This document shows, one piece after another, positions 22,904 through 63,850 of a stretch of 64,000 nt of DNA (positions are counted from its first letter, which is position 1; each line of letters starts with the position of its first letter). Under the pieces are notes generated by a model. That model saw nothing but the letters and a program-made list of their open reading frames with translations, was not told the origin of the DNA and ran no database searches. A program made the position numbers and the translations under genes. Origin of the DNA: Asanoa hainanensis. Lineage in GTDB: Bacteria > Actinomycetota > Actinomycetes > Mycobacteriales > Micromonosporaceae. The stretch covers positions 124,001 to 188,000 of the forward strand of contig NZ_FZPH01000016.1 of NCBI RefSeq assembly GCF_900188485.1, written 5' to 3'.

Positions 22904-23026
22904 GGCGCGGACCGCAACCCCAACGCGGAACGCAGGACCAGCGCGGACCGCAACCCCAACGCGGAACGCAACCCCAACGCGGGCCGCAAGACCGACGCGG
23001 GCCGCAAGACCGACGCGGGCCGCTAG
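22904..23026. repeat. 18-bp minisatellite, 6.8 copies
   Basis: Units of the form RRCGCGGRMCGCARSMCC repeat every 18 bp: GGCGCGGACCGCAACCCC, AACGCGGAACGCAGGACC, AGCGCGGACCGCAACCCC and so on, the last cut short at CGCTAG. The array touches the stop codon of the minus-strand membrane protein gene. On the plus strand it would read as a charged six-residue repeat (NAERNP, DAGRKT), but no start or ribosome site supports translation. Confidence 0.85.
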
Positions 23027-47664: not shown

Positions 47665-48188
47665 GCCCGCACCTTCTGCCGGAAGTCCTGCTCCACCTCG
47701 TCCGGTGGCAGCCAGGCGATGCCGTGCACCTCGTCTGCCCGCAACCGGGTGGCAGGTGCGGTGACCGTGGTGAAGAGATAGCGGACGTCGAAATGGTGGT
47801 GCGCGGCTTCGTCTCTGGCCGGGTTGGCGGCGATCGGGTGGACGCCGATGTCGCACGGCGTGTCGTCGGCCAGGGTCAGCAGCGCGATGCCAGTCTCCTC
47901 TTCGACCTCTCTTTGGGCCGCGCCGACTAGCGTCGTGTCGCCGGGTTCGAGGTGTCCGCCGGGCTGGAGCCATCTCTTGAACACGCTGTGGCGGATGTGG
48001 AGCATCCGGCCGGCAGGGTCGAGCACCACCGCGGAGGCGGTCACGTGGCCGGGTACGAACGTCTTTCGGGAGACGACGTCGGCTTCTTCCGTGAGGGCGG
48101 TGGTCAACGGTGCCAGCCGCTCGGCCTCGGCCGGGTGCCGCGCGAGGTAGCCGGCGATCACCTCGGCGACGTGCGCACGGGACATCAC
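47646..48188 (-). CDS. NUDIX hydrolase
   Basis: 180 aa. A complete Nudix box runs from residue 78: GGHLEPGDTT then AAQREVEEETGI. HVTASAVVLDPAGRMLHIRH is the preceding strand pattern. The substrate is a nucleoside diphosphate derivative, not specified further. GTG 48188 or ATG 48185. It is upstream of, and overlaps, the DinB gene, and lies 21 bp downstream of the second LacI gene. Confidence 0.92.
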   Translation of the reverse strand: MMSRAHVAEVIAGYLARHPAEAERLAPLTTALTEEADVVSRKTFVPGHVTASAVVLDPAGRMLHIRHSVFKRWLQPGGHLEPGDTTLVGAAQREVEEETGIALLTLADDTPCDIGVHPIAANPARDEAAHHHFDVRYLFTTVTAPATRLRADEVHGIAWLPPDEVEQDFRQKVRAWAAAL

Positions 48189-48209
48189 CCCGAGATGGTA
48201 CGCGTCGCC

Positions 48210-49250: not shown

Positions 49251-49394
49251 AGGTGTGACCAGGGTGCCACAGCCAGCGATCGATGCGGCATCCGCCGCCC
49301 GGCGGGCGGCTGTGGCCGTCGTCACGTGGTGCCATTACGTGCCCGTGACATCGCGCGGATCGATCGCGGACACGTGGCTGCCACCGTCTGACCT

Positions 49395-50516
49395 GTGCCT
49401 TTGCTATCTCCCCGCCTCGCCGATCGCCGTGGTGCCAGCACCCTCTGGGTCTCGTCGTGGGCCACGTCCGCCGAGTCATCCCGGGTGGCTTGGGCGGACA
49501 CGGCCAAGGGCGCCTGCATCCTGCTGGTCGTCGCCTGGCACGTGATCGTCAAGGACTACCTGCTGGTCTCGTGGCACATCGGGCTGCCGCTGCCGGGGGT
49601 GTGGGGCACGTTCGGAGAGCAGCTGTTGCCACTGCGAATGCCGCTCTTCTTCACCATCTCCGGCATTTTCGCGAGCAGTGCTCTCGCCCGGCCATGGCGG
49701 GTGGTGGCCCGCGGCCGGATCGCCACGTTCCTCTACCTGTACGCGGTGTGGCTGCTGGTGCACACGGCGGTGCTCGCGCTCGTGCCGGACTTCCCGACCG
49801 CGCGGGCCCACTCGCCGCTGGAGCTGGTGGAGCAGCTCACGATCACCCCGTCGAACCTTTGGTACCTGTACGCCCTGGCGATCTACTTCGCGTTCGCCAA
49901 GGCGGTGCGGCGGCTGCCTCCGTTGGTGGTGCTCGTGCCGGCGGCGGTGCTGTCCGCGGTCGCGGCGGCCGGCCTGGTGCCGACGCCCGGCGACCGCGGC
50001 GGCTTCTACCAGAACCTGGTGTTCTTCCTCGCCGGCCTGTACTTCCGGCCGCGTCTCGAATCGCTCGCGGCCACCGCGACCCCTCGTCGGTTGTGGCTCA
50101 CCGGCCTGGCGTACGTGGGTGCGCTGGCCGTGATGGCCGCGCTCGGCGCCTCGGAGTGGTTCGGGGTGTGGCTGGTGGTGTCCGCGGTGGCGGTGGTGTT
50201 CGGGGTGACCGCGGCCGCCTGCGTCGCCCGGTCCGCGCTGGGCACGCGGCTCGCGCGGCTGGGCCGGATCACCCTGCCGATCTACGTGATCCACATGCCG
50301 GTGCTGGCCCTGCTGCACCTGCTGCTGGTCGGGCTGGTCTCCTCCCTCGGCGGCGGCGCCCAGTTGGTGGTCGCCCTGTTCTACCCGGCGGTGCTGACCG
50401 CGGTCGTGGTCGTCCTCAGCCTGGCCATCCATCGTGGACTGACCGCTGTGCGTGCGCGCTGGCTGTTCGCCCTTCCCTCCCTCCCCCTCCGCCTCCGCTT
50501 AGGAGCTGCCCCATGA
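49395..50516 (+). CDS. Acyltransferase 3 family membrane protein
   Basis: 373 aa with about 10 helices. The family motif is visible near the start (ADTAKGACILLVVAWHVIV, with the conserved His) and in LPLRMPLFFTISGIFASSAL (the R-x-FF-x-ISG motif). Such proteins O-acetylate cell-wall glycans, lipids or secondary metabolites. GTG start assumed. Its stop overlaps the next ATG (ATGA), coupling it to a VanX-like dipeptidase, which hints at a cell-wall role. Confidence 0.88.
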   Translation: MPLLSPRLADRRGASTLWVSSWATSAESSRVAWADTAKGACILLVVAWHVIVKDYLLVSWHIGLPLPGVWGTFGEQLLPLRMPLFFTISGIFASSALARPWRVVARGRIATFLYLYAVWLLVHTAVLALVPDFPTARAHSPLELVEQLTITPSNLWYLYALAIYFAFAKAVRRLPPLVVLVPAAVLSAVAAAGLVPTPGDRGGFYQNLVFFLAGLYFRPRLESLAATATPRRLWLTGLAYVGALAVMAALGASEWFGVWLVVSAVAVVFGVTAAACVARSALGTRLARLGRITLPIYVIHMPVLALLHLLLVGLVSSLGGGAQLVVALFYPAVLTAVVVVLSLAIHRGLTAVRARWLFALPSLPLRLRLGAAP

Positions 50517-51157
50517 TCCTGATCTCCGACCCCCGCGTCGCCGCGGTGCCGGTGTTCGACAACGGTGAGGCCATGGTCGACCTGCGCACCGTGGACGAGC
50601 TCCGGGTCGACGACCGGCTGGCCGATCCGGAAGGTGCTTTCGCGCGGCTGCGGGAGGGCGCGGTGGCGCGGCTCCTCGCGGCGCAGCGCGCGCTCCCGGC
50701 CGGGCTGCGGTTGCTGGTCGTAGAGGCCTACCGACCGTTGCGGCTGCAGCGGGAGTACTTCGGTGGCTACCAGGACGAGCTGCGTTCCCGGTTTCCGTCG
50801 TGGTCGGAGGAACGGGTGTACGTGGAGGCGAGCAAGTACGTGTCACCGCCGTCGGTGGCGCCGCACAGCACCGGCGGCACCGTCGACCTGACGTTGGCGG
50901 GGCCGGACGGGCGCGAGCTCGACATGGGCACGGCCGTCAACGACAGCCCGGTGGCCAGCGCCAACGCGTGCTTCACGGCCGCGACGCACATCCCGGCATC
51001 GGCGCGCCGCAACCGCTACGTGCTGGGCTCGGCCCTGCGATCGGCCGGCTTCGCGAACTACCCGACGGAGTGGTGGCACTGGTCCTACGGCGACCGCTAC
51101 TGGGCCCTGGGCACGGGCGCCTCACAAACCCACTACGGCCCGGTCGACCTGGGCTGA
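50513..51157 (+). CDS. VanX-type D-alanyl-D-alanine dipeptidase
   Basis: 214 aa, family M15D. Zinc ligands His118 and Asp125 in APHSTGGTVDLTL, catalytic Glu186 and third ligand His189 in PTEWWHW, and the transition-state Arg74 in EAYRPLRLQ. VanX enzymes cleave D-Ala-D-Ala; chromosomal homologues without vanH/vanA also serve peptidoglycan-peptide turnover. No van ligase genes are near, so resistance should not be inferred. Strong AGGAG ribosome site. It is the second gene of an operon with the acyltransferase. Confidence 0.9.
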   Translation: MILISDPRVAAVPVFDNGEAMVDLRTVDELRVDDRLADPEGAFARLREGAVARLLAAQRALPAGLRLLVVEAYRPLRLQREYFGGYQDELRSRFPSWSEERVYVEASKYVSPPSVAPHSTGGTVDLTLAGPDGRELDMGTAVNDSPVASANACFTAATHIPASARRNRYVLGSALRSAGFANYPTEWWHWSYGDRYWALGTGASQTHYGPVDLG

Positions 51158-51164
51158 CCCTGGG

Positions 51165-53066
51165 TCAGCGGTTGTCGGCCGCGACCAGTAGGCGGATCTG
51201 GGCGTCGGTCCAGGCGTTCGGTAGTCGGTCCGGGGAGCCGCAGGCGCCGGCCACGGTCGTCAGCGCCTGGCCGCAGCGGGCCAGGCCCAGGTTGGTGAGT
51301 GTGGTCGCGGCGGTGCGCAGGCGGTCCGGGTAGGTGGGCGGTAGGTGGTGCCCGCCGCGGTGGGCCAGCTCCGCGAGCAGGCCGAGGGCGTCGTCGAGCG
51401 CCCGGCCGAGCTCGTCGCCTTCGGCCGCGTCGCCGTGGGTGGCCAGCTCGCCGCCGGCGGTCGCTAGGTCCGGCACCACCACCGTGTCGGCCACGACGAC
51501 GGCGAGTGGGCTGATGACCAGGCCGCCCCGGCCCCGGCGGACCAGGCCCGACAGGAAGCGGGCCTTGGGCAGAGCCTCCGCCAGGGCGTCCAGCGCGCCC
51601 GGGCTCGCGGAGCGGTGGACCGCGGAGACCGTCGCCGTGGCGCCGGTCGCGTCGGCGACGACCGCGTCGAGTCGCTGGTCGCCTGGGGCGTAGTGGACGG
51701 ACCTGACCTCGGCCACGGGTATCACCCGGACCGCTTCGGCGTCGACCCGCGGGCGGATCAAGCGTGGAGGTAGTCGGTCCAGCTCGGCGGTCAGCGCGGC
51801 CAGGTCGGGGGTGAGGATGCCGGGCGGCAGGTCGCCCCACTCCCCCGCCGAGCCAAGCACGCTGTTGCGGGACAGGCGTCCGGCGGGCAGCCGGACCCGG
51901 CGGCTGGCGGTGCGCACCGCCGACTCGCTGAGCAGGTTGCCGCCGGCCAGGGCCGCGATCGTGGTGCCCACGACGCGGCGGGATCCGGCGGGCTGCCCGT
52001 CCGCGCCGCCGCGCGTCCAACGGTGGCGCAGGGTCAGCACCGTGGCGGTCATCGGGTCCGCCAGGAAGATGTCGGCGGTTTGCTCCGGGCCGGCCGACGT
52101 GACCCGGCAGCCGAGGCCGGTCAGCCGGACCCGGCGCAGCTGCGTCTCGGCGGCCTCCTCGGTGCCGAGCACCGACGCGCCCCGCGCGGCGGCTCGTCGC
52201 CGGCAGTGCAGCTCCGCGAGCAGTTCCGCGAGCTGCTCCGGGCGATAGCGGGCGCTGCGCTCGGCGTACGCGGTGAGCTGGTCCGCGATGTCCTCGAGCG
52301 CGAGGAGCGGCCAGCGCAACCGGGCGCCGTCGAGCCCCTTGGCCACCGCCGCGACGGCCGGCAGGAGCGGGGTCGCGTGTGCGGCGCCGTCGAGCAGGAG
52401 GTCGTTGGCGAGGGCGACCGCGTCGTCCAGCGCGCCCAGCGGGCCGGTGCTGCCGCTGCCGACGTCGACGCGTTGCCGGCCAGCCTCCGGGTCCTGCTCG
52501 TCGGCGACCCGGAACGCCCACACGGCCAGCGCGACGGTGTGGTCTGTCCCGCCGTGCGCGGCGTCGCTGTGCACGTAGCCGAGGTCGTGCGGCACCAGGA
52601 ACCGGACCGTACACGCCGGCAGGTCGACGCGGGGTGCCGGATCGTCGGGCGTCGGGCGGTGGACCTGGGCCTGGTAGCCGGAGCGCGCGATCCGCCGGGC
52701 CGCGGCGAACGCGCGCTTCCCGATCGCCGCTTCGAGGTCGGTGTCGGTGAACGCGCCCGGCGACCACGCGGCCACGGGTGCCGGGCTCTCCACCGTGGGT
52801 GGGTCGGCCTGGTAGGTGAGGATCGTCGCGAGCGCGTGGCGGCAGGTGGTGGTCGCGCCGCAGGTGCAGTGGGCGGCGTCGAGGCCGCCGGGTGACAGCG
52901 TCGTGCGTACCCCGTCGGAGAAGTCCGCCCGCACGGAGCCGTCGGGATCGGTCCGGATCGTCGGCCGGTCGCCGGACTCGACGGCGCGGCCGGCCCGCTT
53001 GACCAGGCCTCGGTTCGTCAGCGCGGCCAACGCGTCGGTGGTCAGCGCGAGCAGGTCGGCCCTCAT
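51165..53066 (-). CDS. SWIM zinc-finger protein (YehQ-like), last gene of the MoxR-VWA cluster
   Basis: 633 aa. The SWIM motif CxCx5CxH is at Cys67, Cys69, Cys75 and His77 (CTCGATTTCRH). The remaining ~550 residues are alpha/beta with no known domain apart from a DUF-like C-terminal half (YPDRLRTAATTLTNLGLARC). SWIM fingers bind nucleic acid or protein. Its ATG overlaps the stop of the VWA gene, so it is the fifth gene of a translationally coupled set. In E. coli, YehQ is the equivalent as I recall it; function unknown. Confidence 0.85.
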   Translation of the reverse strand: MRADLLALTTDALAALTNRGLVKRAGRAVESGDRPTIRTDPDGSVRADFSDGVRTTLSPGGLDAAHCTCGATTTCRHALATILTYQADPPTVESPAPVAAWSPGAFTDTDLEAAIGKRAFAAARRIARSGYQAQVHRPTPDDPAPRVDLPACTVRFLVPHDLGYVHSDAAHGGTDHTVALAVWAFRVADEQDPEAGRQRVDVGSGSTGPLGALDDAVALANDLLLDGAAHATPLLPAVAAVAKGLDGARLRWPLLALEDIADQLTAYAERSARYRPEQLAELLAELHCRRRAAARGASVLGTEEAAETQLRRVRLTGLGCRVTSAGPEQTADIFLADPMTATVLTLRHRWTRGGADGQPAGSRRVVGTTIAALAGGNLLSESAVRTASRRVRLPAGRLSRNSVLGSAGEWGDLPPGILTPDLAALTAELDRLPPRLIRPRVDAEAVRVIPVAEVRSVHYAPGDQRLDAVVADATGATATVSAVHRSASPGALDALAEALPKARFLSGLVRRGRGGLVISPLAVVVADTVVVPDLATAGGELATHGDAAEGDELGRALDDALGLLAELAHRGGHHLPPTYPDRLRTAATTLTNLGLARCGQALTTVAGACGSPDRLPNAWTDAQIRLLVAADNR

Positions 53067-54181
53067 CGGCCCACCTTCTCGGCGACGAACTCGGCCAGGT
53101 GCGCGGGGGTCATCGCGCCGACGTGGGCGCCCGCGTCGGCGAGCAGTTGCGCGGTCTGCCGGTCGTACGACGGATTGGCCTCCTCGTCGAGGGCGGCCAG
53201 CCCGAGCACGTGGGTGCCCTGTTCGACCAGCCCACGGACCGCCCGCACGAGCCCGCCCGGCGGACCGCCCTCGTAGAAGTCGGTGACCACGGCGACGATC
53301 GCCCGGCGCGGGTTGTCGACCAGCCCGGCGCCGTAGCGGACCGCCCGGGCGATGTCGGTGCCGCCCCCGAGCTGGACCTTCATCAGCAGCTCGACCGGAT
53401 CGTCGACGTCGGCGGTCAGATCGACCACCTCGGTGTCGAACGCGACCAGGTGCGTGCGGATGCCCGGCAACCCCCAGAGGCAGGCGGCGGTGACGGCGGA
53501 GTGGATGACGGAGCTGACCATCGACCCGGACTGGTCGACCAGCAGGATGAACTGCCAGGGTTCGAGCTGCCGCCGCGTACGCCCGAAGAAGTGCACGTCC
53601 TCGACCAGCAGCCGGCGCTGGTCCGGCTGGTAGTTGCCCAGGTTCGCCCGGATCGTCCGGCGCATGTCGAGGTTGCGGGCCTGTTTGAACCGGCTCGGGC
53701 GGCGCGACCGGGCACCGGTGAACGACTGCCGCACGCTGACCGCGAGCCGGTCCACGAGATCCTGCACGACCGCCCGGACGATCCGCCGGGCCAGCGCGAG
53801 CACCTCGGGGTTCATCAGGTGTTTCGTGCGCAGCACGGCCTTGAGCAGCGTGGCGTTGGGCTCGATCCGGCCGAGCACCTCGGGGTCGGTGAGCACGTCC
53901 GGGATCTGGTAGCGCTCGACCGCGTCGCGTTCGAGCCGTTCCACCGTCTCCTTCGGGAAGAGCCGGTTGACCTGGTCGAGCCAGTCCATCGTGGTCAGTT
54001 GGGAGGCGCCGTCACCGCCGGCGCGGCGCCGGACGTCGCGCTGGTCCAGGTCGTCGTCCCGGCCGTAGAGCCAGTCGAGTGCGGCGTCCCGCCCGGCCGC
54101 GGTGGCGCTCATCGGCTGGCCGCACAGGCAGGCGTCGGCGGCCTCGCCGAGGATCAGCCGCCAGCGTTCGAGGTCGCTCAT
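53063..54181 (-). CDS. VWA-domain protein, CoxE/YehP-like
   Basis: 372 aa. After ~210 mostly helical residues, the VWA domain starts with the MIDAS motif FILLVDQSGSM (Asp216, Ser218, Ser220); the MIDAS threonine is in LGGGTDIARAV and the Asp in VVTDFYEGG, so metal binding looks intact. VWA proteins of this type work with MoxR AAA+ ATPases, which deliver or remodel them on a target; the ATPase is encoded two genes upstream. Start and stop codons overlap both neighbours by 4 bp. Confidence 0.9.
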   Translation of the reverse strand: MSDLERWRLILGEAADACLCGQPMSATAAGRDAALDWLYGRDDDLDQRDVRRRAGGDGASQLTTMDWLDQVNRLFPKETVERLERDAVERYQIPDVLTDPEVLGRIEPNATLLKAVLRTKHLMNPEVLALARRIVRAVVQDLVDRLAVSVRQSFTGARSRRPSRFKQARNLDMRRTIRANLGNYQPDQRRLLVEDVHFFGRTRRQLEPWQFILLVDQSGSMVSSVIHSAVTAACLWGLPGIRTHLVAFDTEVVDLTADVDDPVELLMKVQLGGGTDIARAVRYGAGLVDNPRRAIVAVVTDFYEGGPPGGLVRAVRGLVEQGTHVLGLAALDEEANPSYDRQTAQLLADAGAHVGAMTPAHLAEFVAEKVGR

Positions 54182-56880
54182 GGTGCCACGAGTCCTTCCC
54201 TGTGCAGCAGCTCGTCTACATAGGAGTCCAGCTCGCTCGCCCTTGCGTGCCGCACCGGGTCATGCCTCAGGCGCAGCAGGGCGCGGCTGTCCGCGACGAT
54301 CCCCCGCCGGGCCAGCAGCGCCTCGGCGAGGCGGTGCCGCTCGCGCGGCGGGAAATAGGCGAACGCCTGGCGCAGCGCGGGCAGGGCGATCAGGAAGTCG
54401 CCGTCGGTCATCGAGCTGACCAGGCCGTCGAGCACGTCGAGCAGCCCGCCGTCGGCTGTCGCCTCGTCGCGGGCGACGCTGAACAGCCCCGCCAACCAGT
54501 CGCCGAGCACGCCCGGCGCCGCCGCGCCGCGCAGCGCCCTGGTCGGGTCGCCGCTTTCGCCCAGGGACCAGCCGAACCCGAACGCGGCGCCGCGTAGGTC
54601 GGGTGGTGCCGCCGCGTCGGCCGCGACCCGCGCCATGACGGCGAGCCCGGCCGCGCGGTCGAGACCGAACGCGTCCGCGGCATGCCGCAGCCCGTCCCGG
54701 ATCGCCGCGACCGCCCGCAGCCGCGCCAGGTCGGCCGGCGCGGGTCCACCATGGACACCCTCGGCCAGCCACAACCCGCGCGTCACACCGCCTCTGACGA
54801 CCTCGCCGAGCACCGGACTGCGCGCGGCGCCGAACAACCGGTCGTGCCGCCACAGCCCGAGCGCGACGGCGAGCACCCCGCCGAGCTCGGCCAGGTCGGT
54901 GACGCCGCCGACGGCCCGACGCAGCACGCTGACGATCTCACCGGTGACCGCCGCGACGCCGCACAAGGCGGCGTCGAACAACACGGCGGCGACGGCGTCG
55001 GCCCGCCCACCCGCGTCGGCGGCCCGTTCGAGCAGCGCCGCGGCCGCCGCGTCGCCGAGTGTGGCGCCGTGCCCGCCGGCCTCGATCAGCGCGACCAGCC
55101 GGTCCGGGTCGTCGGTCAGCCGCCACTGTTCGGTCAGCACGGGGTCGACTCCGGGCTTCGGCCCGCTAGCTCTCTCGTATCCCGGCACCCGCAACACCCG
55201 CAGCCGGTGCAGTGTGCGGCTGCGGTCCCGGTCGTCGCCGTCCGTCAGGTCCAGCTTCCGGGTGCCTGCGGCGTCGAGGCCGAGCCGCGTCAGCTCGGCG
55301 GCCGCCGCGCCGACCAGCGGGGGTTGCGGAGTGTCCGGGTGCAGGGCGCCGACCCGCTCACCGGCGAGGGCGGCGACCATCTCGACGACCACGGGGTGCG
55401 TGCCGACCGCGAGCCGGCCGCGGTGCGCCCACGGCAGCGGTGCCTCCATGGCCTCGCCGACCAGGGCCGAGACCAGACCGTCAAGGACGTCGGCCCGAGC
55501 CGGGTACGCGTGGCCGCGCACCCGGGCCAGCCCCTCGGCCATGGTGCGGGCCGCGATCAGGTCGGCGGTTGAGGCGGGTTGCCCGCGCGGGCGCAGCCGG
55601 GTGACCACGGTCTCGGCGAGCCCACGCCCGGCCGCCTCGGGCCCGTCGTCCCAGACCCGCTGATAGAACTCGGGCGACGGCATCCCGGACTGGTAGCCGT
55701 GAAAGGCATCCAACCGCTTGAACGCGTACGGAACGAGGTAACTGGACCCCACCGCCCCGGCTGGAGGCGCCGGCACCTCAGGCCACAACCCAACGTCCCC
55801 GCCGTCCATAGCCGGTACCTCTGACCGCGAGCCAACCGCCCGGCCTGCCACCAACTCCGACCGCGAGCCAACCGCCCGGCCTGCCACCAACTCCGACCGC
55901 GAGCCAACCGCCCGGCCCGCCGCCAACTCCGACCACGACCGAACATCGGCGCCCGCCACCACCACCGGCTCGGACCGCAACCCAAGGTCCGCGCCCGCCG
56001 CCACCACCGGCTCGGACCGGGACTCGGCCCCGGTGCCCGCTGGCACCGGCAAGCCGGACCGCGACTCGACAGGCCCGCCCGACGCCACCTCCGACCGCGA
56101 CTCGGCCGCGTTGCCCGCTGGCACCGGCCCGCCGGACCGCGTCCCTACAGGCCCGCCCGACGTCGGGGCCCCGGATCGCAACCCAACATCCCCGCCCAGT
56201 TCCGCCGGCACATCCGGCCACGACCGGTCTGTGCCGGCGGCGGCGATCAGGCGTTCCAGGGCCGGGCGGTGGAAGCCACCGCAGACCACGAGGACCGGGC
56301 CTTCGTCGCGGGCCACCGCGGCCCGGATCCACGTTGCCATGTAGGCCTCGCGTTCCAGGTCCGCGGCGCTGGCTGCCGTGTCGCCGCGGAGGGTCTCGAA
56401 GTAGACCGACAGGCGGTCCGCGAGGCCCTCGAAGGGTGCGGCCTCGACGAGGTGGTCCCAGAGCGTGTCGGTGTTGTCCATCGCGAACGCCGCGCACAGC
56501 CGCTCGGTCGCCCGCAGGTAGCGCTCCTCCGCGTCGGCGTAGCGGTTCTCCCTCGTCGCGAACGCCGGGTGCCAGGCCGGCAGGTCGATGAAGCGGACCT
56601 CGGCGCCGTTGGCCCGCCCACGCGTCAGGGCCACCCATTCCGGCGAGTAGTCGCAGAACGGACTCCAGGACGCGTGTGTCCGCTCGCCGTCGCGGTAGGA
56701 GGTGAAGATCGCGACCGGCAGCGTGTGCCCGAGCAGCAGCTCGTCCAACCGCTCGTTGACGTCGGCCGGGCCTTCCACCAACACGTGCGGCGGGCGTAGT
56801 TGCTCGATCGTGGCGGCGACCAGGCCGGCGCAGGCGGGGCTGTGGTGGCGCACGCCTACGACGGTGACGGGCGCGGCCAT
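54178..56880 (-). CDS. DUF5682 family protein (YehM-like) with repeat insert
   Basis: 900 aa from ATG 56880, which overlaps the AAA+ stop by one base (TGATG). The N-terminal part (VTVVGVRHHSPACAGL, LVEGPADVNE, VVCGGFHRPALERL) is the DUF5682 core. A ~150-residue Arg-Ser-rich insert follows (about 235-385), including three exact-length 12-residue units (GSRSELVAGRAV). After it come SSYLVPYAFKRLDAFHGYQS and a long helical C-terminal half. Function unknown; always found, to my knowledge, with MoxR and VWA partners. Confidence 0.85.
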   Translation of the reverse strand: MAAPVTVVGVRHHSPACAGLVAATIEQLRPPHVLVEGPADVNERLDELLLGHTLPVAIFTSYRDGERTHASWSPFCDYSPEWVALTRGRANGAEVRFIDLPAWHPAFATRENRYADAEERYLRATERLCAAFAMDNTDTLWDHLVEAAPFEGLADRLSVYFETLRGDTAASAADLEREAYMATWIRAAVARDEGPVLVVCGGFHRPALERLIAAAGTDRSWPDVPAELGGDVGLRSGAPTSGGPVGTRSGGPVPAGNAAESRSEVASGGPVESRSGLPVPAGTGAESRSEPVVAAGADLGLRSEPVVVAGADVRSWSELAAGRAVGSRSELVAGRAVGSRSELVAGRAVGSRSEVPAMDGGDVGLWPEVPAPPAGAVGSSYLVPYAFKRLDAFHGYQSGMPSPEFYQRVWDDGPEAAGRGLAETVVTRLRPRGQPASTADLIAARTMAEGLARVRGHAYPARADVLDGLVSALVGEAMEAPLPWAHRGRLAVGTHPVVVEMVAALAGERVGALHPDTPQPPLVGAAAAELTRLGLDAAGTRKLDLTDGDDRDRSRTLHRLRVLRVPGYERASGPKPGVDPVLTEQWRLTDDPDRLVALIEAGGHGATLGDAAAAALLERAADAGGRADAVAAVLFDAALCGVAAVTGEIVSVLRRAVGGVTDLAELGGVLAVALGLWRHDRLFGAARSPVLGEVVRGGVTRGLWLAEGVHGGPAPADLARLRAVAAIRDGLRHAADAFGLDRAAGLAVMARVAADAAAPPDLRGAAFGFGWSLGESGDPTRALRGAAAPGVLGDWLAGLFSVARDEATADGGLLDVLDGLVSSMTDGDFLIALPALRQAFAYFPPRERHRLAEALLARRGIVADSRALLRLRHDPVRHARASELDSYVDELLHREGLVAP
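55823..55930 (-). repeat. Three 36-bp tandem units inside the DUF5682 gene
   Basis: Units 55823-55858, 55859-55894 and 55895-55930 differ at only a few bases. Looser copies of the core GGACCGCRA continue to about 56190 at roughly 36-48 bp spacing. All lengths are multiples of three, so the frame stays open. Confidence 0.85.
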
Positions 56881-58388
56881 CAGCCTGGAAGCAGGTGGCG
56901 CGCCGCGTGCAGCGCCTGCCACTGCTCGCCCGCGTGCGCCCGTGCCTGCTGCTCCAGGTAACGGCGCAACCTCGCCAGATCGTCGGCGTTGTCTTTTGCC
57001 GCGGTGCCGGCCAGGCAGGCCACGACGTCGGCCGCCTGGCCCGCCTCACCCCGCAGGAACCAGCCGCGTAGCCCGACCGCGTGCGCCACCGAGACCGCTT
57101 CGGCGGTGCTCATCACCGACGACAGCCGTTCCATGGTGTCGCCGCGTTCGGTGACGCCGCCGCGCAGCTCGCGGAACGCGGTGACGAGCACCTCCAGCAC
57201 GTCGCGGCGCGGCGGCACCCGCACGCCCGACCGAGCCAACAGCTCGGATGCCTGCGCCTCGACCAGGTCGAGCTCGGTGGCCAGGTCCGGGATCGGGAAC
57301 ACGGTCTCGAAGTTGAACCGCCGCTTGAGCGCCGCGCTCATCTCGTTGACCCCGCGGTCACGGGTGTTGGCGGTGGCGATGACGGTGAAACCGTCGCGGG
57401 CGAAGACCAGCCCGTCGTCACCGCTGAGCTCCGGGACGGCCAGCATCCGGTCGGACAGCGGCGACAGGAGCGAGTCCTGCACCTCCAGCGGGCAGCGGGT
57501 GATCTCCTCGAACCGCACCACGCGGCCCTCGGCCATGCCGCGCAACAGCGGCGCGGCCACGAGCGACCGGGTCGACGGCCCTTCGGCGACCAGCAGCGCG
57601 TAGTTCCACGAGTAGCGGATCTGGTCCTCGGTCGTGGCGGCACCACCCTGGATGACCAAGGTGGAGTCGCCGCTGACCGCCGCCGCCAGCAGCTCGGAGA
57701 GCAGCGACTTGGCGGTGCCTGGCTCGCCGACGAGCAACAGCCCGCGACTGGTGGCCAGGGTGACCAGGGCCCGGTCGATCAGCGACGGGTCGCCGACGAA
57801 CTTGCGGCTGATGCCGGCCGCGGGGTCGCCGACGATGAACGTGCGGGCCGCCCGCAGGCTCAACGCCCAACCGGGCGGCCGTTCGCCGTCGTCGGTCTCC
57901 CGCAGCCGCGCCAGCTCGGCGGCATACCGAACCTCAGCCGGCGGCCGTTGCACCGCGCCCGCCCCAGGCTCATCCGCCATCCGGTCCGCAGGCACGCTCC
58001 GCACCACGCGCACCGCAGGCTCAGGCGCCACCCGCTCCGCAGACACGCTTCGCACCGCGCCCGCCGACGGCTCGTCGGCAATCTGGTTTGCAGGCACGCT
58101 CCGCGTCGGGCCCACCGCAGGCTCAGGCGCCACCCGCTCCGCAGACACGCTTCGCACCGCGCCCGCCGACGGCTCGTCGGCAATCTGGTTTGCAGGCACG
58201 CTCCGCGTCGGGCCCACCGCAGGCTCAGGCGCCACCCGCTCCGCAGACACGCTTCGCACCGCGCCCGCCGACGGCTCGTCGGCAATCTGGTTCGCAGACA
58301 CGCTCCGCGTCGCGCGCGCCCGTGGCTCATCGGCGGTCTGGTTCGCCGGCGGGCTCTGCACCGCGCTGTGGGTGGTTCTGGGGGTCAT
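56880..58388 (-). CDS. MoxR-type AAA+ ATPase (YehL-like) with repeat-rich N-terminus
   Basis: 502 aa. The ATPase domain begins near residue 190: KFVGDPSLIDRAL, Walker A GEPGTAKS (221-228), Walker B VVRFEEITR (Glu294/Glu295), sensor-1 ATANTRDRG, and the arginine-finger region ALKRRFNFETVFPI. MoxR proteins remodel partners, typically VWA proteins. Residues 11-146 are eight 17-residue Pro/Ala/Glu repeats (RSVPANQIADEPSAGAV and variants), absent from typical MoxR proteins. ATG overlaps the DUF4132 stop by 4 bp (ATGA). The longer frame upstream is antisense of nothing but reads through the DUF4132 gene in the wrong frame. Confidence 0.92.
   Translation of the reverse strand: MTPRTTHSAVQSPPANQTADEPRARATRSVSANQIADEPSAGAVRSVSAERVAPEPAVGPTRSVPANQIADEPSAGAVRSVSAERVAPEPAVGPTRSVPANQIADEPSAGAVRSVSAERVAPEPAVRVVRSVPADRMADEPGAGAVQRPPAEVRYAAELARLRETDDGERPPGWALSLRAARTFIVGDPAAGISRKFVGDPSLIDRALVTLATSRGLLLVGEPGTAKSLLSELLAAAVSGDSTLVIQGGAATTEDQIRYSWNYALLVAEGPSTRSLVAAPLLRGMAEGRVVRFEEITRCPLEVQDSLLSPLSDRMLAVPELSGDDGLVFARDGFTVIATANTRDRGVNEMSAALKRRFNFETVFPIPDLATELDLVEAQASELLARSGVRVPPRRDVLEVLVTAFRELRGGVTERGDTMERLSSVMSTAEAVSVAHAVGLRGWFLRGEAGQAADVVACLAGTAAKDNADDLARLRRYLEQQARAHAGEQWQALHAARHLLPG
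57951..58358 (-). repeat. 51-bp tandem repeat encoding the MoxR N-terminal linker
   Basis: Eight in-frame 51-bp (17-codon) units, arranged mostly as 102-bp dimers of an 'ANQIADEPSAGAV' type and an 'AERVAPEPAVGPT' type. The middle dimers are almost identical in DNA, which indicates recent expansion. Confidence 0.9.
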
Positions 58389-61300
58389 CGGGCCAGTACC
58401 TCGTTCAGGTCGCGGAGCATCTCCGACACGGTCACCGCGTCGAGGGTGTCGAAGGTTTCGGTCAGCCCGGGTCGCAGCCAGTCGCCGTCCGGGCGGGTGT
58501 TGATCCAGACGGCCGTGACCGTCTGCTCTTCGAGGATGTCGGGTGCGCCGACCGCGATGCCCGGGTCGAGGTCGATCACGATGGCGCGACGGTCGGGGGT
58601 GGCGCGCCAGAACCAACTCTGGACACCGGCGTCCTGCGGCTCGCCCCGCCGCCAGCCGCGGCGTTCGAGGCCGAGCAGGGTGGTGCTGGGCACCTTCTCG
58701 TCGGCGTAGCGGGTCAGCGTCGTCGCCGCGCGCTCCGCGTCGGTGAGCGCCAGGACCGGCCGACCGAGCTGTGGGAACGGCTGGAGGATGGCGTAGTCGG
58801 CGAAGATCTCCGACCACGCCGCCGCCTCTTCGGCGCCGAGGTGCAGCGGGTGGGCTACCCGGACGGTGGCGTCGGCCGGGAGCTCCCAGGTCTCGTCGTC
58901 GACGTCGGCGTAGCTGCGGTCCTCGGCCACCCGGAACGCGACAGGGTCGCCGTCGCCGACCCGCGCCACCCAGACGAGGCGGCGGACGATGTGCCAGAGC
59001 AGCGGGTGCCGCACGAACAGGTCGCGGAACTCGTCGGCCGACCAGGCCCGCTGGCCGACCATCGCCGCCTCGAGCCGACGGATCTGGTCGGCGGCGAGGG
59101 TACGGACGTCTTTCTTGAGGCCGGCAAAGCGCTGGTGCGCCGCGGGAGCGAGCGCGGGCTCGTCGCGGATGCCCGGCTTGGGCAGGTCTTTGCGGCGGGC
59201 GCCCGACTCGTCGACCACGTAGGGCTCGAGCTGCTCGTCGAACCCGACCACGAACCGGCGGGGGCCGTAGTCGAGGGTCAGCGAGCCGTTGGCGTCGAGA
59301 CCGAGGTCGGGCACGAGTCGGTCGGCGAGCTGGTCGGCGGTGAGCCCGAGCCCGTCGGCCACCTCGGCGATCTTCTCGCCCGCACGGTCCTTGAGGCCCT
59401 TGAACTTGGCCTTCTGCGCGATGCCGTGCAGGTGCGTCAGCGCGAGGTCGGAACCGATCTCGGCGAGCACGTCGAGCCCGATCAGCGCCTTGGAGTGGCC
59501 ACCGTCGCCCGGCCACGCCCGGATCACCGGCGATAGGCGGCGAACCGTCTCGTCGTCACCGATCCAGCGCAGCGCGTGCAGCGGCCAGGCCTCCTTTGGC
59601 GGCGCACCGACCGCCTGCCACTGCGTGAACAGCGCCCAGGCGAAGTCGGCCAGCGAGCGCGGATCGCAGGCGGCACGGACCAGCGGAACGCCGGCGTAGA
59701 CGTCGCCGGGCTTGGAGATGGCGAGCATGGTGCAGAGGTGTCGGACCGCCTCGGTGCTCAGCGCGGCCGAGCGGTCGGCGAGCAGGATCCGCGGCAGCAG
59801 GCCGGGCTCGGCCCAGGCCGGGAGCTTCGGGAGGCGCGTCGGCACCAGGTCGAGCGCGTCGGTGCCGAGCAGCTCCTCGACGCCGGCCCGGGCGGCCGGA
59901 CCGTAGTCGTCGGCGGCCGCGAGCACGGCCGCGTGGTGCCGGGCCGCGATCTGCCGCAGTGCTCCCTCGGCGGCCCGGCGGTCGGTGCCGGGCTTGCCCA
60001 GTGCGGCCGGGGTCAGGGCGCGGGCGGCGTACGCGGGGTGCCGGTCGAACCAGGCGATCGCGTACGAGCGCAGCGACTTGAGCCGGGCCAGCGCCTCGGC
60101 CATGCGGGTGGCGATCTCGGCGCTGGCGAACGGGAGCAGCAGCTCGGTGCAGCTCGCCGGCAGCGCCTTGGCCACGTGCATGGTCGTGGGCAGTGCGACG
60201 AGCCCGTGGGCGGCGACGATCGCCGGCAACCACTCGTGGGCGTCCCAGACCCGCCCCGGCCGCCAGTCGGGTAGCAGCGTCGCCACCACGTCATGCGGTC
60301 CGGTGCACATCAGCGTCACGTGGTGGTGGGACGGCAGCTTTCCGGCGCGGAACTGCTCGACGGCGGATTCGATCGGGACCTCCAGCTTCCACCAGGCGGC
60401 GCGTCGGGCGCTGGTGGCGGCCCACTCCTCCTGCTCGCCGGGCGCCCAGGCGAGCACGGGCCCGCCCGTGAAGGCGAGACCGGTCAGGACGGTCGGTTTG
60501 GCCGGCTTCCGCTTGACCGTCCAGGGTGGAGTGACGAGGGCCGGGGGCAGCACCTCGGGGGACGCGTCCGGCACGGCCGAGCGCTCGGCGAGGATCGCCT
60601 CGACGCGAGCCTGGGCGGCCGGCGGCAGGGTGGGCAATTCGCCCGCGACCAGCTCCTGGTTGGCGAGAACGTGGACCCGGAGTTGCTCGGCCACACCGTC
60701 GGCGGCGGCGAGGACGCGGAGGGCACGGCGCGGGAACCGGCTGGCCGCGCCGTGGATGGCGGCGCGGACGTATTTGTCGTCGAGGCGGGCGACCAGTGCG
60801 GCGAACGCCTCGTCCGTAGGGAACTGCGCGATGATGCCGGCGAGTCGCTGCCGTGCCTCGGCGTCGACCTGACCGGAGTCGAACCAGGTGAGTAGCTGCG
60901 GCAGAACGGCCGGCCCGACCCCGTCGACCCCGGTGGCCAACAGGTCGGTGTTGGTGACGACGCCCCAGCCATACATCGCCGGCGCGACCAGCGCGATCTG
61001 TTCGCTGGTCGTCGCCGAGCACCACAGCAGGTGGGCGGCCGAGCCGTAGCCGCTGACACTGGTCTCCACGCAGTCGGCGTCGACCCAGGACTGGCGCGTC
61101 GGCAGCAGGAACGAGCTGGCCGCCCGCAGCTCGATCGAATCGTCGCGTAGCCCGCCCAGCAGGTCGACCGCCGCGGCGTAGTCGTCGTCGCCCGCCACCG
61201 CCAGGTGCGCCCGCACCCGGCCGGCGATCACCAACCAGGGGTGGTAGTGGCCCCACGAACCGGTCACCCGGCGCACGAGGCGCGGCGGGATCTGGCCGCC

Positions 61301-61726
61301 GTTGTTCCAGTAGCCGCCCAGCTCTACGCCGGCCATGCGGAGCGTCGCCTCGGCCGCGAAGACCACGCCGCGCCGCGCCGCCCAGTCGTCGGCGAGGTGG
61401 CGGAGCTGGTCCTGCTCGCGCCAGCCGAGATGGTGTCCGACCAGCGCGGCCACCACGGCCGCCCCCTCGGCCGAGCCGGACTCGTGATCGGCCAGGTAGC
61501 CCTCGGCCTCCGCGACCAGCTCGGGGTCGCTGTTGGTGTTGGCGAGCCGGGAGTCCAATGTGGCCTTGGCCGAACGGACCAGCTCGGCGGCCTTGTGCGG
61601 GTCGAGGGTCAGCGCTGGCCCTGGCGTGCCACCACGGCGTGGATAGAAGTGCCGGCGCCACGCGACCGGCAGCGTGAACGGCCCGTCTTCGCCCACTGCC
61701 CCGTGCTCCTGCCCGACCGACAACAC
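58385..61726 (-). CDS. DUF4132 protein (YehI/MolR-like), first gene of the cluster
   Basis: About 1113 aa. The C-terminal third is DUF4132 (LDYGPRRFVVGFDEQLEPYV, DEFRDLFVRHPLLWHIVRRL, FADYAILQPFPQLGRPVLAL); the N-terminal two thirds look like alpha-solenoid repeats. The E. coli YehI equivalent, from memory, also has a WGR domain, which I do not see here. Start uncertain: GTG 61726 or TTG 61723 just after GGGGAGG; the frame runs on to 61864 but with atypical sequence. It heads five overlapping genes, so the promoter should be in the gap to the GH43 gene. Confidence 0.85.
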   Translation of the reverse strand: MLSVGQEHGAVGEDGPFTLPVAWRRHFYPRRGGTPGPALTLDPHKAAELVRSAKATLDSRLANTNSDPELVAEAEGYLADHESGSAEGAAVVAALVGHHLGWREQDQLRHLADDWAARRGVVFAAEATLRMAGVELGGYWNNGGQIPPRLVRRVTGSWGHYHPWLVIAGRVRAHLAVAGDDDYAAAVDLLGGLRDDSIELRAASSFLLPTRQSWVDADCVETSVSGYGSAAHLLWCSATTSEQIALVAPAMYGWGVVTNTDLLATGVDGVGPAVLPQLLTWFDSGQVDAEARQRLAGIIAQFPTDEAFAALVARLDDKYVRAAIHGAASRFPRRALRVLAAADGVAEQLRVHVLANQELVAGELPTLPPAAQARVEAILAERSAVPDASPEVLPPALVTPPWTVKRKPAKPTVLTGLAFTGGPVLAWAPGEQEEWAATSARRAAWWKLEVPIESAVEQFRAGKLPSHHHVTLMCTGPHDVVATLLPDWRPGRVWDAHEWLPAIVAAHGLVALPTTMHVAKALPASCTELLLPFASAEIATRMAEALARLKSLRSYAIAWFDRHPAYAARALTPAALGKPGTDRRAAEGALRQIAARHHAAVLAAADDYGPAARAGVEELLGTDALDLVPTRLPKLPAWAEPGLLPRILLADRSAALSTEAVRHLCTMLAISKPGDVYAGVPLVRAACDPRSLADFAWALFTQWQAVGAPPKEAWPLHALRWIGDDETVRRLSPVIRAWPGDGGHSKALIGLDVLAEIGSDLALTHLHGIAQKAKFKGLKDRAGEKIAEVADGLGLTADQLADRLVPDLGLDANGSLTLDYGPRRFVVGFDEQLEPYVVDESGARRKDLPKPGIRDEPALAPAAHQRFAGLKKDVRTLAADQIRRLEAAMVGQRAWSADEFRDLFVRHPLLWHIVRRLVWVARVGDGDPVAFRVAEDRSYADVDDETWELPADATVRVAHPLHLGAEEAAAWSEIFADYAILQPFPQLGRPVLALTDAERAATTLTRYADEKVPSTTLLGLERRGWRRGEPQDAGVQSWFWRATPDRRAIVIDLDPGIAVGAPDILEEQTVTAVWINTRPDGDWLRPGLTETFDTLDAVTVSEMLRDLNEVLAR

Positions 61727-61829
61727 AGCCTCCCCTGATCCGTTGTGAACGGTGGAACCGTAGCGGCGGGGTACGACAAAACCTGCCCTTGAAGTGCGCC
61801 GGCCAATCTGGCAATCTGCGACTATCGAT

Positions 61830-61841
61830 GTGAGCGCTAAC
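61830..61841. promoter_or_regulatory. LacI-type operator 1 of the GH43 gene
   Basis: GTGAGCGCTAAC with central GC and the pattern of LacI-family sites. It is 113 bp before the first candidate ATG of the GH43 protein with a signal peptide and also within reach of the divergent DUF4132 promoter. Confidence 0.6.
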
Positions 61842-61908
61842 CGGGTGGCGCGGGGACTCCACATCGGATCAATGGTGCTGCGCTGTGCACTGGTGCGCGC
61901 GCGGCGAT

Positions 61909-61920
61909 GTTAACGCTCAC
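61909..61920. promoter_or_regulatory. LacI-type operator 2 of the GH43 gene
   Basis: GTTAACGCTCAC, the inverted counterpart of operator 1 with one base changed; centres are 79 bp apart. It ends directly before an in-frame ATG (61921), arguing that translation starts further down. Confidence 0.65.
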
Positions 61921-61953
61921 ATGCCCCGTACCGCCGGAAGATTGGTGATTCTG

Positions 61954-63318
61954 ATGTCCCTGACCCGACGTGCGTTCACCGCCGGCACGCTGGCCGCCGC
62001 GGCCGGAATGTTCGCGCTCCCCCGCGCCGCGCTCGCGGCCAACGCCGCGTACCTGATGGCGTATTTCACCGAGTCGCCGCAGATGCAGGGCGCCAACTAC
62101 GGGCTGCACCTGGCGGTCAGCCAGGACGGCTGGAACTGGACGCCGCTCAACCAGAACAACCCGGTGGTCACGCCAACGGCCGGGACGCTCGGCCTGCGCG
62201 ACCCGTTCGTGCTGCGCAAACAGGACGGCACATTTGTCGTGTTAGCCACGGACCTGAATGGCACGAACTTTGGGCTGAACAATCAGTACCTACATGTATG
62301 GGACTCGACCAACCTGACCTCGTTCACCGGCTACCGGCGCATCCAGATGCACACGCTGGCGACGCACACCTGGGCGCCGACGGCGTTCTGGGACGCGTCG
62401 CGCGGCCAGTACGGCATCGTCTACTCTGCGGTCAACGGCGGCCGCGACCTGTTCCAGGTCAACTACACCTCGGACTTCCGCACCGTCAGCGCGCCCCAGA
62501 TCTTCTTCAACCCGGGCTTCGGTGTGCTCGACGGCGACATCGTCGTCGACGGCGCGACGACCTACCTGTATTACAAGAACCTCAACGACGGCTACCTGTA
62601 CGGCGCGCGCTCCTCCACGGGCCAGCCGAACAGCTTCACCACGTACACGGGTGGGTTGCGGCAAGGCACCGCGATCGAGGCGCCGCTGCTGCTGAAGGCC
62701 AACGACGGCGGCTGGCGGCTGTGGGGTGACTCGTTCGGGCCGGTCAACAACGACTACTACGCCTGGTCCACGGGCAGCATCGGGGGTGGGTCCTGGTCGG
62801 TGATGAACCAGCGCGACTACACGCCTCCGCTCAACGCCAAGCACGGATCGATCATCGGGATCAGCGCCACGGAGTACGCGGGTGCGGTCTCGCGTTGGGG
62901 CCTGCCTGCGTGGGTGCGGCTCAAGTCGTCGAACTTCCCCGACCGGTACGTGCGGCACGCGAACCGGATCGGCCGGCTCGACGCGTACCCGTTCGACCCG
63001 TACCAGGACCAGATGTGGCGTCTCGTGGCCGGCCTGGCCGACGGCGCGGGTGTCTCGTTCGAGTCGGTCAACTACCCGGGGTCTTACCTGCGCCACTACA
63101 ACTACGAGATCCGCCTCGACGTGCTCGACAACACGGCGACCTTCCGGGCCGACGCCACCTTCTACCGCACCGCCGGCCTGGCTGATTCGGCTTGGTCGTC
63201 GTTCCGGTCCTACAACGCGCCGACCCGGTACCTCCGCCACTACAACTATCTGTTGCGGGTCGACCCGATCAGCACAGCGACGGAGCGGCAGGACGCGACG
63301 TTCCGGGTCACTTCCTGA
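61954..63318 (+). CDS. Secreted GH43-like glycosidase with AbfB (CBM42) domain
   Basis: 454 aa from MSLTRRAFTAGTLAAAAG, a Tat-type signal (RRAF) ending ALAA. A five-bladed propeller follows: GLHLAVSQDGWNWTPL, LRDPFVLRKQDGTFVVLATD (general base Asp region), HTWAPTAFWD, and IEAPLLLKANDGGWRL (acid Glu region). The C-terminal ~135 residues are an AbfB arabinose-binding domain with repeats ending YVRHANR, YLRHYNYEIR and YLRHYNYLLR. It probably releases arabinofuranose from plant polysaccharides. ATG 61921 is an alternative but overlaps the operator. Confidence 0.9.
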   Translation: MSLTRRAFTAGTLAAAAGMFALPRAALAANAAYLMAYFTESPQMQGANYGLHLAVSQDGWNWTPLNQNNPVVTPTAGTLGLRDPFVLRKQDGTFVVLATDLNGTNFGLNNQYLHVWDSTNLTSFTGYRRIQMHTLATHTWAPTAFWDASRGQYGIVYSAVNGGRDLFQVNYTSDFRTVSAPQIFFNPGFGVLDGDIVVDGATTYLYYKNLNDGYLYGARSSTGQPNSFTTYTGGLRQGTAIEAPLLLKANDGGWRLWGDSFGPVNNDYYAWSTGSIGGGSWSVMNQRDYTPPLNAKHGSIIGISATEYAGAVSRWGLPAWVRLKSSNFPDRYVRHANRIGRLDAYPFDPYQDQMWRLVAGLADGAGVSFESVNYPGSYLRHYNYEIRLDVLDNTATFRADATFYRTAGLADSAWSSFRSYNAPTRYLRHYNYLLRVDPISTATERQDATFRVTS

Positions 63319-63850
63319 CGGTGAAGGGTTCCGACTCGGCGACATCGCGAAGTCCGTCGTCGGGCAGCAGGCGCACCACGTACCGGCCGGGCGGCAGCGG
63401 CCAGTCCCCGATGCCGCCCGGGCCGATGCTCAGTCGCCCTTCGATCTGACCACCGGTGTACGCGTACGTGAGGTACGCGTCGTTCCCGTCGCCTGCGCGG
63501 AACACGGAGATCCAGTCGAGTCCCATGCCGGGCGCGTTGCTGAGCTCGACCGCGATCTTCTCGCCGGCGCGGTAGCTGGCCTTCGTGGTCGCAACAGGCG
63601 CGGGCCTGTCCTGGGTAGAGCCAGACCGGCGCGCCGTTGACCGGGTAGCGGCCGCGCTCGAGGCCACGGGTCTCGAACCGCACCGTGCCGTCCTGGCGCG
63701 GCGTCGACGGCGGGCCTTAACGTGGCCGGCGCCGTCGCGGAGCGTCACCGCGTCGGTGTTGTGATGGTCGACCACGATCGGGTCGCCGAGGTCGACGTTT
63801 CGCTCGCGTGGGGCGGCGAGCCCGAGCCGCCTCACCGACCCCCGGCGGTC
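63308..63850 (-). pseudogene. Frame-broken gene for a secreted Ig-like domain protein
   Basis: On the minus strand a good C-terminal domain (TTKASYRAGEKIAVELSNAP, GLDWISVFRAGDG, WPLPPGRYVVRLLPDDG) is in one frame. Just upstream, coding similarity continues in another frame (RQDGTVRFETRGLERGRYPV, NGAPVWLYPGQ, about 63612-63700), then returns to the first (DLGDPIVVDHHNTDAVTLRD). Two compensating frameshifts, near 63605 and 63705, are needed, so this is a decaying gene or a sequence error. Its stop overlaps the GH43 stop by 11 bp. The 5' end is not resolved. Confidence 0.6.

Follow-up and report, generated by a model that had tools for sequence, protein, structure and literature searches.

We analyzed a window of 64,000 nucleotides from Asanoa hainanensis (contig NZ_FZPH01000016.1, positions 124,001 to 188,000; positions below are counted from the first letter of this window) and focused on a cluster of five minus-strand genes at 51165-61726, which encode in order a DUF4132 protein, a MoxR AAA+ ATPase, a DUF5682 protein, a CoxE-type VWA protein, and a SWIM zinc-finger protein. 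These five genes form a real unit that is conserved in gene order and is either present or absent as a whole within the genus. We proposed that the cluster encodes a YehL-type MoxR-VWA remodelling machine with DUF4132 adaptors, a reading to which we give even chances and for which we name no target.

A Five-Gene Cassette Conserved as a Unit

The initial annotation of this DNA had described five minus-strand genes overlapping by 1-4 bp, and the junctions read from the sequence agreed, with overlaps of 4, 1, 4, and 4 bases (ATGA, TGATG, ATGA, and ATGA). It had also taken the short overlaps as a sign of strong selection for equal expression; this does not follow, as a short overlap was also observed at another pair of the window (50513/50516, by simple gene calling). 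Four of the five families that it had named passed their Pfam cut-offs: DUF4132 with 205.1 bits (cut-off 27), AAA_5 with 117.9 (22), DUF5682 with 332.7 (26), and VWA_CoxE with 197.6 (26.4), so that in this hidden Markov model (HMM) check the DUF4132 and DUF5682 assignments exceeded their thresholds by wide margins. The SWIM protein gave no Pfam match at 0.01 and was assigned by its motif, CTC-GATTT-CRH. The metal-ion-dependent adhesion site (MIDAS) of the VWA protein, claimed to be intact, could be read as DQSGS, GGTD, and TDF. The proposed identity with yehI-yehL-yehM-yehP-yehQ of Escherichia coli was likewise confirmed: the order in K-12 MG1655 is yehI-yehK-yehL-yehM-yehP-yehQ, and the five families common to the window stand in the same order, with identities to the E. 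coli counterparts of 63% (MoxR), 58% (VWA), 38% (DUF5682), 28% (SWIM), and 28% (DUF4132).

Genome contigs were scanned with a DUF5682 alignment, and the best 80 of at least 519 relatives were taken as loci; all 80 named loci are actinobacterial by title, and three are metagenome-assembled genomes. This choice by DUF5682 score favors close relatives, and the 80 loci are not independent trials. With family HMMs built here, MoxR, DUF5682, VWA, and SWIM were identified in this order on one strand in 79 of the 80 loci, the remaining locus (L116) being cut by a contig end, and DUF4132 was found upstream of this core in 77 of those 79, the two exceptions (L082 and L090) both belonging to Actinoplanes. 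Because 79 of 80 loci found by DUF5682 alone shared the order and strand of MoxR, VWA, and SWIM, we concluded that the five-gene set is more than a chance association; the genes do co-occur, as the initial annotation had supposed. In E. coli, yehL-yehQ were detected at a cover of at least 80% in 5162 of 5426 complete genomes. Averaged over 72 loci, among them the window and E. coli, identity was 80% for MoxR, 71% for VWA, 61% for DUF5682, 51% for SWIM, and 43% for DUF4132, the least conserved of the five subunits, and within seven Lentzea loci the corresponding values were 96, 92, 89, 86, and 75%.

Within the genus, the Yeh-type set was found in two of six genomes (G000 and G001), and a second DUF5682 and VWA pair, of the type 2 architecture described below, in all six. 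In G005, blastn aligned window positions 47477-51157 and 61791-63822 to the corresponding stretch (L188) with 39 bases between them; the 10.6 kb missing from this genome comprise only the cassette itself and a few bases upstream of it, and the neighbors on both sides are kept and adjacent. The left edge in G003 lies at almost the same position (51159), and the AbfB gene is also missing, with the window resuming at 63315 after 5 bases. The left neighbor gene was not found in G002 and G004, and the site was assessed in G003 and G005. Because the cassette is absent whole from the same site in G005, with a near-equal left edge in G003, we concluded that it is one unit. The DUF4132 gene could start with GTG at 61726 or with an in-frame ATG at 61864; we favored the former because the conserved flanking DNA extends inward as far as 61791.

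The surroundings of the cassette are not conserved. No gene position in the flanks was common to most of the 80 loci, and an extra operon member was ruled out for this reason; for a fraction of 0.51 of the 73 first downstream genes, no other locus had a homologue in its flanks. Relatives of DUF5682 were present in 36 plasmid records. In Pseudomonadota, a Sinorhizobium plasmid carries the permuted order MoxR-DUF5682-DUF4132-VWA-SWIM, and an Iodobacter plasmid carries DUF4132-DUF4132-MoxR-DUF5682-VWA-SWIM; on this mobilizable Iodobacter plasmid, genes for type I restriction-modification come after the yeh-type operon (L162, 14083-17740). The E. coli IncF conjugative plasmid NZ_CP103756.1 (L163) carries the yeh operon together with its chromosomal neighbors btsR, btsS, and mlrA, and an IS26 transposase lies at the upstream end of this stretch. 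A reading of the cassette as a mobile element was set aside: relatives were absent from viral contigs by the patterns used, one weak place was found in phage records, and the window contains no tRNA. Unlike this viral contig scan, PHROGs of unknown function strongly matched the window DUF4132, DUF5682, VWA, and SWIM proteins, which may point to a phage or prophage record that contains the operon or to contamination of such a record.

Subunits and Sister Architectures

The original classification of MoxR subfamilies is reportedly that of Snider and Houry in 2006. Seven subfamilies of MoxR proteins, one of them named YehL, are described in PMC3893208. In the window MoxR protein the Walker A motif GEPGTAKS and the motif RRF were read, and it scored 712 bits with the family HMM, compared with 325 bits for the type 2 MoxR of the same host (the seeds of this HMM include the window and E. 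coli). The VWA protein has 372 amino acids (aa), of which the VWA domain extends to residue 365, and an effector fusion at the C terminus is absent. For the SWIM protein, the family HMM built here gave 849 bits; of the 82 family members inspected, the window and E. coli proteins among them, 78 have a CxC..CxH motif within the first 200 residues, and E. coli YehQ passed the Pfam SWIM model with 31.5 bits (cut-off 19.6). The window protein has one SWIM motif and the E. coli protein two. In-frame minisatellites build both an N-terminal extension of about 130 aa in MoxR and an insert in the DUF5682 linker; the orthologue in G001 (L032) also has a linker insert in DUF5682, of different sequence.

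The cassette was found to be one of four architectures. Type 1 is the Yeh type, DUF4132-MoxR-DUF5682-VWA-SWIM. Type 2 has one protein with SWIM and DUF5691 followed by MoxR-DUF5682-VWA; in L041 a single open reading frame (ORF) matched DUF5691 with 447 bits and SWIM with 22.6 bits, and in L042 the protein matched DUF5691 with 496 bits and two HEAT models, both below their cut-offs, with no SWIM match reported. In Rhizobium and Deinococcus, SWIM and DUF5691 are annotated as two genes, and in these as in type 2 DUF5691 occupies the slot of DUF4132. Type 3 (L046) consists of a short DUF4132, a 1584-residue protein without a Pfam match in this locus, MoxR, a fusion of DUF5682 and VWA in a single ORF (628 and 211 bits), and a SWIM-like protein of 14.5 bits, under the cut-off; judged by coordinates, all seven type 3 genomes have a short DUF4132 gene close to the core, the Pfam scan covering L046. 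Type 4 has VWA-MoxR-DUF5682-like and two more genes. Across the four architectures, MoxR, DUF5682, and VWA are thus constant, the large partner varies, and two different pairs are fused, which is the best evidence for a physical partnership of the subunits. Neither this four-architecture family, nor the DUF5682 fold, nor the DUF4132 repertoire described below was met in a search of the open literature, in which other names were not each tried.

A Probable TraB/EreA/ChaN-Like N-Domain in DUF5682

The AlphaFold model of a DUF5682 orthologue (L055, from a 45-sequence alignment) had a predicted local distance difference test (pLDDT) value of 87.4 and showed an alpha/beta N-domain followed by a helical remainder. 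We took the motif order GxRHH, E, GGxH to be that of the TraB/EreA/ChaN (TIKI) superfamily before any fold match was available. Residues H7/H8, E31, R172, and H200 were invariant in all 45 sequences. By script, the H/E/R/H set was recovered in 84 of 87 type 1, five of five type 2, and five of six type 3 proteins (94/98; the misses being L053, L089, L103, and L045), and by eye it was recognized in three of three type 4 proteins printed. The spacing from the Arg to the late His is 28 residues in L055, 27 in the window, and 24 to 32 in the printed type 2 and type 3 rows. The catalytic residues of EreC are given as E47, H50, E78, R261, and H289, and EreC, ChaN, and HopBA1 as sharing a common fold, in PMC7979712; the corresponding EreC spacing is 28, compared with 27-28 in type 1 DUF5682 (window and L055). 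A Foldseek comparison with viral models placed a TraB family protein first, with a probability of 1.00 over 250 columns, whereas the next best of the 50 shown reached 0.33.

Several results weigh against this assignment. The viral TraB match itself had an E of 0.019 and only modest values for TM-score (0.42, relative to the target) and root mean square deviation (11.9), and in the fold search against PDB no match reached E 0.001 and helical proteins led the list. There, HopBA1 ranked 42 of the 50 shown with a probability of 0.75, and the chains 7w5z_E (0.84) and 4yje_A (0.75) scored as high or above. Profile comparison of the N-domain by hhalign gave probabilities of 1.4% with TraB and 0.9% with Ere, in register and not significant; in the controls, the related pair Ere-TraB gave 1.8%, and the unrelated MoxR 0.6%, DUF4132 0.2%, and VWA and SWIM 0.1%. 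On balance, we regard a TraB/EreA/ChaN-type fold of the N-domain as likely, one step short of highly likely because the TM-score and deviation of the TraB match are modest, and consider the domain a putative hydrolase or ligand-binding domain. Like TraB/GumN and EreA/ChaN proteins, DUF5682 has an early His after a Gly, then E, RxxxM, and GxxH, and the top viral match of its predicted fold is a TraB protein; unlike them, it carries an added helical part of about 500 residues, is fixed in a MoxR-VWA operon, and has no significant profile match.

DUF4132 Is a Divergent Solenoid Present in Variable Copy Number

The window DUF4132 protein had been suggested to form a solenoid, and its AlphaFold model (pLDDT 91.1) indeed showed an extended solenoid of helices that ends in an alpha/beta region at the C terminus. 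The folds listed by Foldseek were the IP3 receptor, SF3B-type proteins, the karyopherin Kap121, and other solenoids of HEAT type or otherwise, with E from 1e-3 to 3e-2 and TM-scores of at most 0.20 (at most 0.18 relative to the query), and no fold match was found at E 0.001 or better. In both whole-model fold searches (DUF4132 and DUF5682) the helical parts dominated, and they yielded little beyond "HEAT-like". Mean column identity of DUF4132 was 0.27 over residues 1-150 compared with 0.65 over residues 801-900, and the C-terminal domain was more alike than the solenoid in 28 of 28 tandem pairs.

At least two DUF4132 copies of over 700 bits were present in the stretch examined in 31 of the 80 loci. 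We also counted DUF4132 matches genome-wide in 49 genomes drawn from the 80 loci: every genome had a match, with 1 to 20 matches each (median 3), at least two in 38 genomes, and at least 10 in eight, and a hand count gave one Yeh-type DUF5682 for each of these genomes. The largest number, 20, was found in Catenuloplanes japonicus. Here, 12 DUF4132 genes away from the core were inspected; with the Yeh-type HMM, 11 of them exceeded 350 bits and had neither an adjoining MoxR core nor a neighbor gene that recurred beyond a few loci, and the remaining one is of a class that is paired with a small gene. In this separate class of DUF4132 genes (about 720-883 aa; L168, L176, L177, L180, L181, and L185), a small gene common to the class (about 102-139 aa) precedes DUF4132, and there is no adjoining MoxR core. 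In the Actinoplanes locus L082, DUF4132 was absent from the 8.9 kb upstream of the core, and the genome has six matches, for one of which a place was listed. Among 53 copies with a sibling at the same locus, many of them from Lentzea and Actinomadura, the sibling was the closest sequence in only nine; thus, most DUF4132 paralogues are not fresh duplicates. In K-12, yehH (L001, 2411-8912) is a pseudogene beside yehI with DUF4132 matches in two frames, which is in line with turnover of DUF4132 copies.

Proposed Mechanism and Alternative Readings

In the machine that we propose, a hexamer of MoxR (YehL) would use its pore to pull on the VWA protein (YehP), in the manner reported for NorQ-NorD, where two studies describe a finger of the VWA domain entering the MoxR pore and propose that NorQ twists and stretches the NorD linker (PMC13036017, PMC9976466); because NorQ-NorD shows the principle, we suggest the same motor here by analogy. 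Since VWA and DUF5682 form one polypeptide in a sister system, the VWA protein would be tied to DUF5682 (YehM), and the motor would act on or through DUF5682, whose N-domain, of the TraB/EreA/ChaN type, may act as a hydrolase or bind a ligand. DUF4132 (YehI) could serve as a HEAT-like solenoid adaptor, its variable N-terminal solenoid recognizing the target and its conserved C-terminal domain docking on the core, of which the SWIM protein (YehQ) would be a structural zinc module. One core might then be served by several DUF4132 adaptors, encoded by tandem copies or orphan genes. The earlier view that MoxR and VWA together form a remodelling machine is thereby upheld, as our interpretation. More tentatively, we suggest an adaptor-repertoire machine, in which one MoxR-VWA motor with a putative hydrolase is combined with exchangeable DUF4132 solenoids that choose the targets and of which a genome may encode as many as about 20, some of them in tandem arrays. 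Such a repertoire might be likened to the substrate receptors of cullin ligases, with DUF5691 and the 1584-residue protein as possible alternative adaptors in the sister machines.

A number of observations on DUF4132 count against the adaptor part of this proposal. The C-terminal domain is also the better conserved one among orthologous DUF4132 proteins, so that the gradient alone is no proof of adaptor choice, and the fast divergence could equally be relaxed constraint. Eleven of the 49 genomes have a single DUF4132, as does the genome of the window, and the genome-wide counts may include other classes (short type 3 copies and copies paired with the small gene). Broken or split copies also exist, namely yehH of K-12 and the split frames of L085 and L088, which are maybe assembly errors.

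A dedicated maturation chaperone, which like CoxD-CoxE, NorQ-NorD, or RavA-ViaA would insert a cofactor or metal into one enzyme and use DUF4132 as a scaffold only, seems to us rather unlikely, although it has the parts and the precedents: a CoxE-type VWA protein with MIDAS and an AAA_5 MoxR are present, the characterized MoxR-VWA pairs act in this way (PMC13036017, PMC9976466, PMC3893208), and the operon is near-universal in E. coli. However, no enzyme gene is linked to the cassette, the first downstream gene being without a homologue in the other flanks at about half of the loci, and DUF4132 outnumbers the core in 38 of 49 genomes.

The initial annotation had raised a nucleoside triphosphate-dependent conflict system. 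In such a system, as we framed it, a DUF4132 repertoire would sense invaders, MoxR-VWA would be the switch, and DUF5682 the effector. The tandem, orphan, and fast-evolving DUF4132 genes, the patchy presence in the genus (two of six genomes), the type I restriction system that adjoins the cassette on the Iodobacter plasmid, and the analogy to MoxR-vWA ternary systems (PMC7159879), which are also described as adjoining CRISPR loci (PMC10910872), are compatible with this idea. Against it, none of the five proteins had a PADLOC match at 0.01, bpMoxR reached 20.4 bits, below its cut-off of 27, the VMAP and iSTAND families were absent from the Pfam matches, the VWA protein lacks a fused effector, relatives were absent from viral contigs by the patterns used, and the presence in 5162 of 5426 E. 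coli genomes fits badly. The flanks were compared by PADLOC at 1e-10, using 145 genes, one or two from immediately downstream of the cassette at most of the 80 loci, and as controls 141 of 146 neighbors of orphan DUF4132 genes, which are not a random set and from which five small-partner genes were excluded. The flanking genes matched 35 families; among the 25 listed, mad2 occurred in three members and the other 24 in one each, and 21 of the 25 were PD-T4-6 models. The controls matched six families, with mad3 in three members, mad8 in two, and single members for mad2, AriA, and each of two Csa3 models. With 25 of the 35 flank families listed, no excess over the controls was evident, and a defense island was dropped. 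Taken together, these results make a conflict system improbable, and the earlier claim was not sustained.

A DNA-damage response module, in which DUF4132 and WGR proteins are induced through DdrO as in Deinococcus, is very improbable: depletion of DdrO raises drA0165-drA0166 (DUF4132) and dr2173 (WGR), and MolR is cited as a described LexA-regulon member (PMC8533742), and in E. coli the WGR gene yehF precedes yehH-yehI, but an SOS-type box within one mismatch was found in none of 60 upstream regions (the best in the window having five mismatches), CTGT-N8-ACAG was absent from the E. coli stretch over its first 16 kb, and the DUF4132 gene of D. radiodurans has no MoxR, DUF5682, VWA, or SWIM gene annotated in the 17-kb stretch inspected. 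Regulation by SOS was discarded, the signal being weak at 13 of 60 regions with two to three mismatches to an actinobacterial consensus, compared with about six in shuffles. We retained the YehL-type remodelling machine with DUF4132 adaptors as our working proposal.

Features of the Window

Coordinates of the cassette, its domains, its repeats, and the empty site are collected in table 1. Elsewhere in the window, an acetolactate decarboxylase is encoded at 46266-47036 (NCBIfam TIGR01252, 254.6 bits), and further tandem arrays lie at 22499-22688 and 22895-23028 (a 66-bp unit, and units of 18/36/54 bp).

Table 1. Positions of the five genes and associated features in the 64,000-nucleotide window
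Feature	Position	Strand	Description
DUF4132 protein, YehI orthologue	58385..61726	-	1113 aa; HEAT-like solenoid at about residues 20-800 and C-terminal DUF4132 domain; PF13569
DUF4132 domain, best conserved part, proposed docking end	58652..59203	-	Pfam and column identity
MoxR AAA+ ATPase, YehL orthologue	56880..58388	-	502 aa; AAA_5 match; repeat-built N-terminal extension of about 130 aa
Coding minisatellite, MoxR N-terminal extension	57950..58366	-	51/102-bp period; in-frame repeats
AAA_5 domain of MoxR protein	57315..57743	-	Pfam coordinates converted
DUF5682 protein, YehM orthologue	54178..56880	-	900 aa; N-domain similar to TraB/EreA/ChaN, linker with repeats, C-terminal part of helices; PF18934
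DUF5682 N-domain (end approximate)	56242..56880	-	H/E/R/H set: GVRHHSP, VEGP, REAYM, GGFH
Coding minisatellites, DUF5682 linker	55819..56162	-	36-, 42-, and 78-bp periods; in-frame repeats
CoxE-type VWA protein, YehP orthologue	53063..54181	-	372 aa; PF05762; MIDAS DQSGS
SWIM zinc-finger protein, YehQ orthologue	51165..53066	-	633 aa; motif CTCGATTTCRH
SWIM motif CxCx5CxH	52836..52868	-	Read from protein sequence
Stretch swapped for 39 bases in same-genus genome G005 (empty site)	51158..61790	.	blastn, window against L188

Comparison with Known Systems

The operon and the YehL subfamily of MoxR proteins are already known by name. No functional study of the yehI-Q operon was found in the open literature, which leaves out most subscription papers, and no papers on DUF5682 or DUF5691 were found there. 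For DUF4132, the open literature yielded induction on DdrO depletion (PMC8533742) and a transposon insertion, and genes among yehI, L, M, P, and Q are named in deletion lists of papers on bacteria. New here are the TraB/EreA/ChaN-like look of the DUF5682 N-domain and the reading of DUF4132 as a fast-evolving solenoid with a conserved C-terminal domain, expanded in copy number beside a single core; the sister systems with fused subunits or a swapped solenoid and the empty site likewise go beyond the initial annotation. The genes yehL-yehQ are present in nearly all E. coli and yet no functional study was found. The candidate fold and active site of DUF5682, the proposed role of DUF4132, and the fused sister systems would allow direct and cheap tests, in a laboratory strain, of the function of a whole MoxR subfamily.

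The MoxR-vWA ternary conflict systems (eLife 2020;9:e52696), which contain VMAP, iSTAND, or beta-propeller components, likewise combine MoxR, a vWA protein of the CoxE kind, and a large third component; unlike in these systems, VMAP, iSTAND, and propeller are unreported in the window cluster, bpMoxR is below its cut-off, and neither an effector fusion nor an evident defense context was observed. NorQ-NorD, CbbQ-CbbO, RavA-ViaA, and CoxD-CoxE likewise pair a MoxR ATPase with a MIDAS-bearing VWA partner, whereas the window cluster has three more constant subunits and a hydrolase-like domain, and no linked client enzyme was found. Compared with the yeh operon of E. coli, the window has no adjoining yehK or yehF, one SWIM motif instead of two, repeat inserts in MoxR and DUF5682, and a single DUF4132; the E. 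coli genes yehI-L-M-P-Q nevertheless represent the same five families in the same order as the window.

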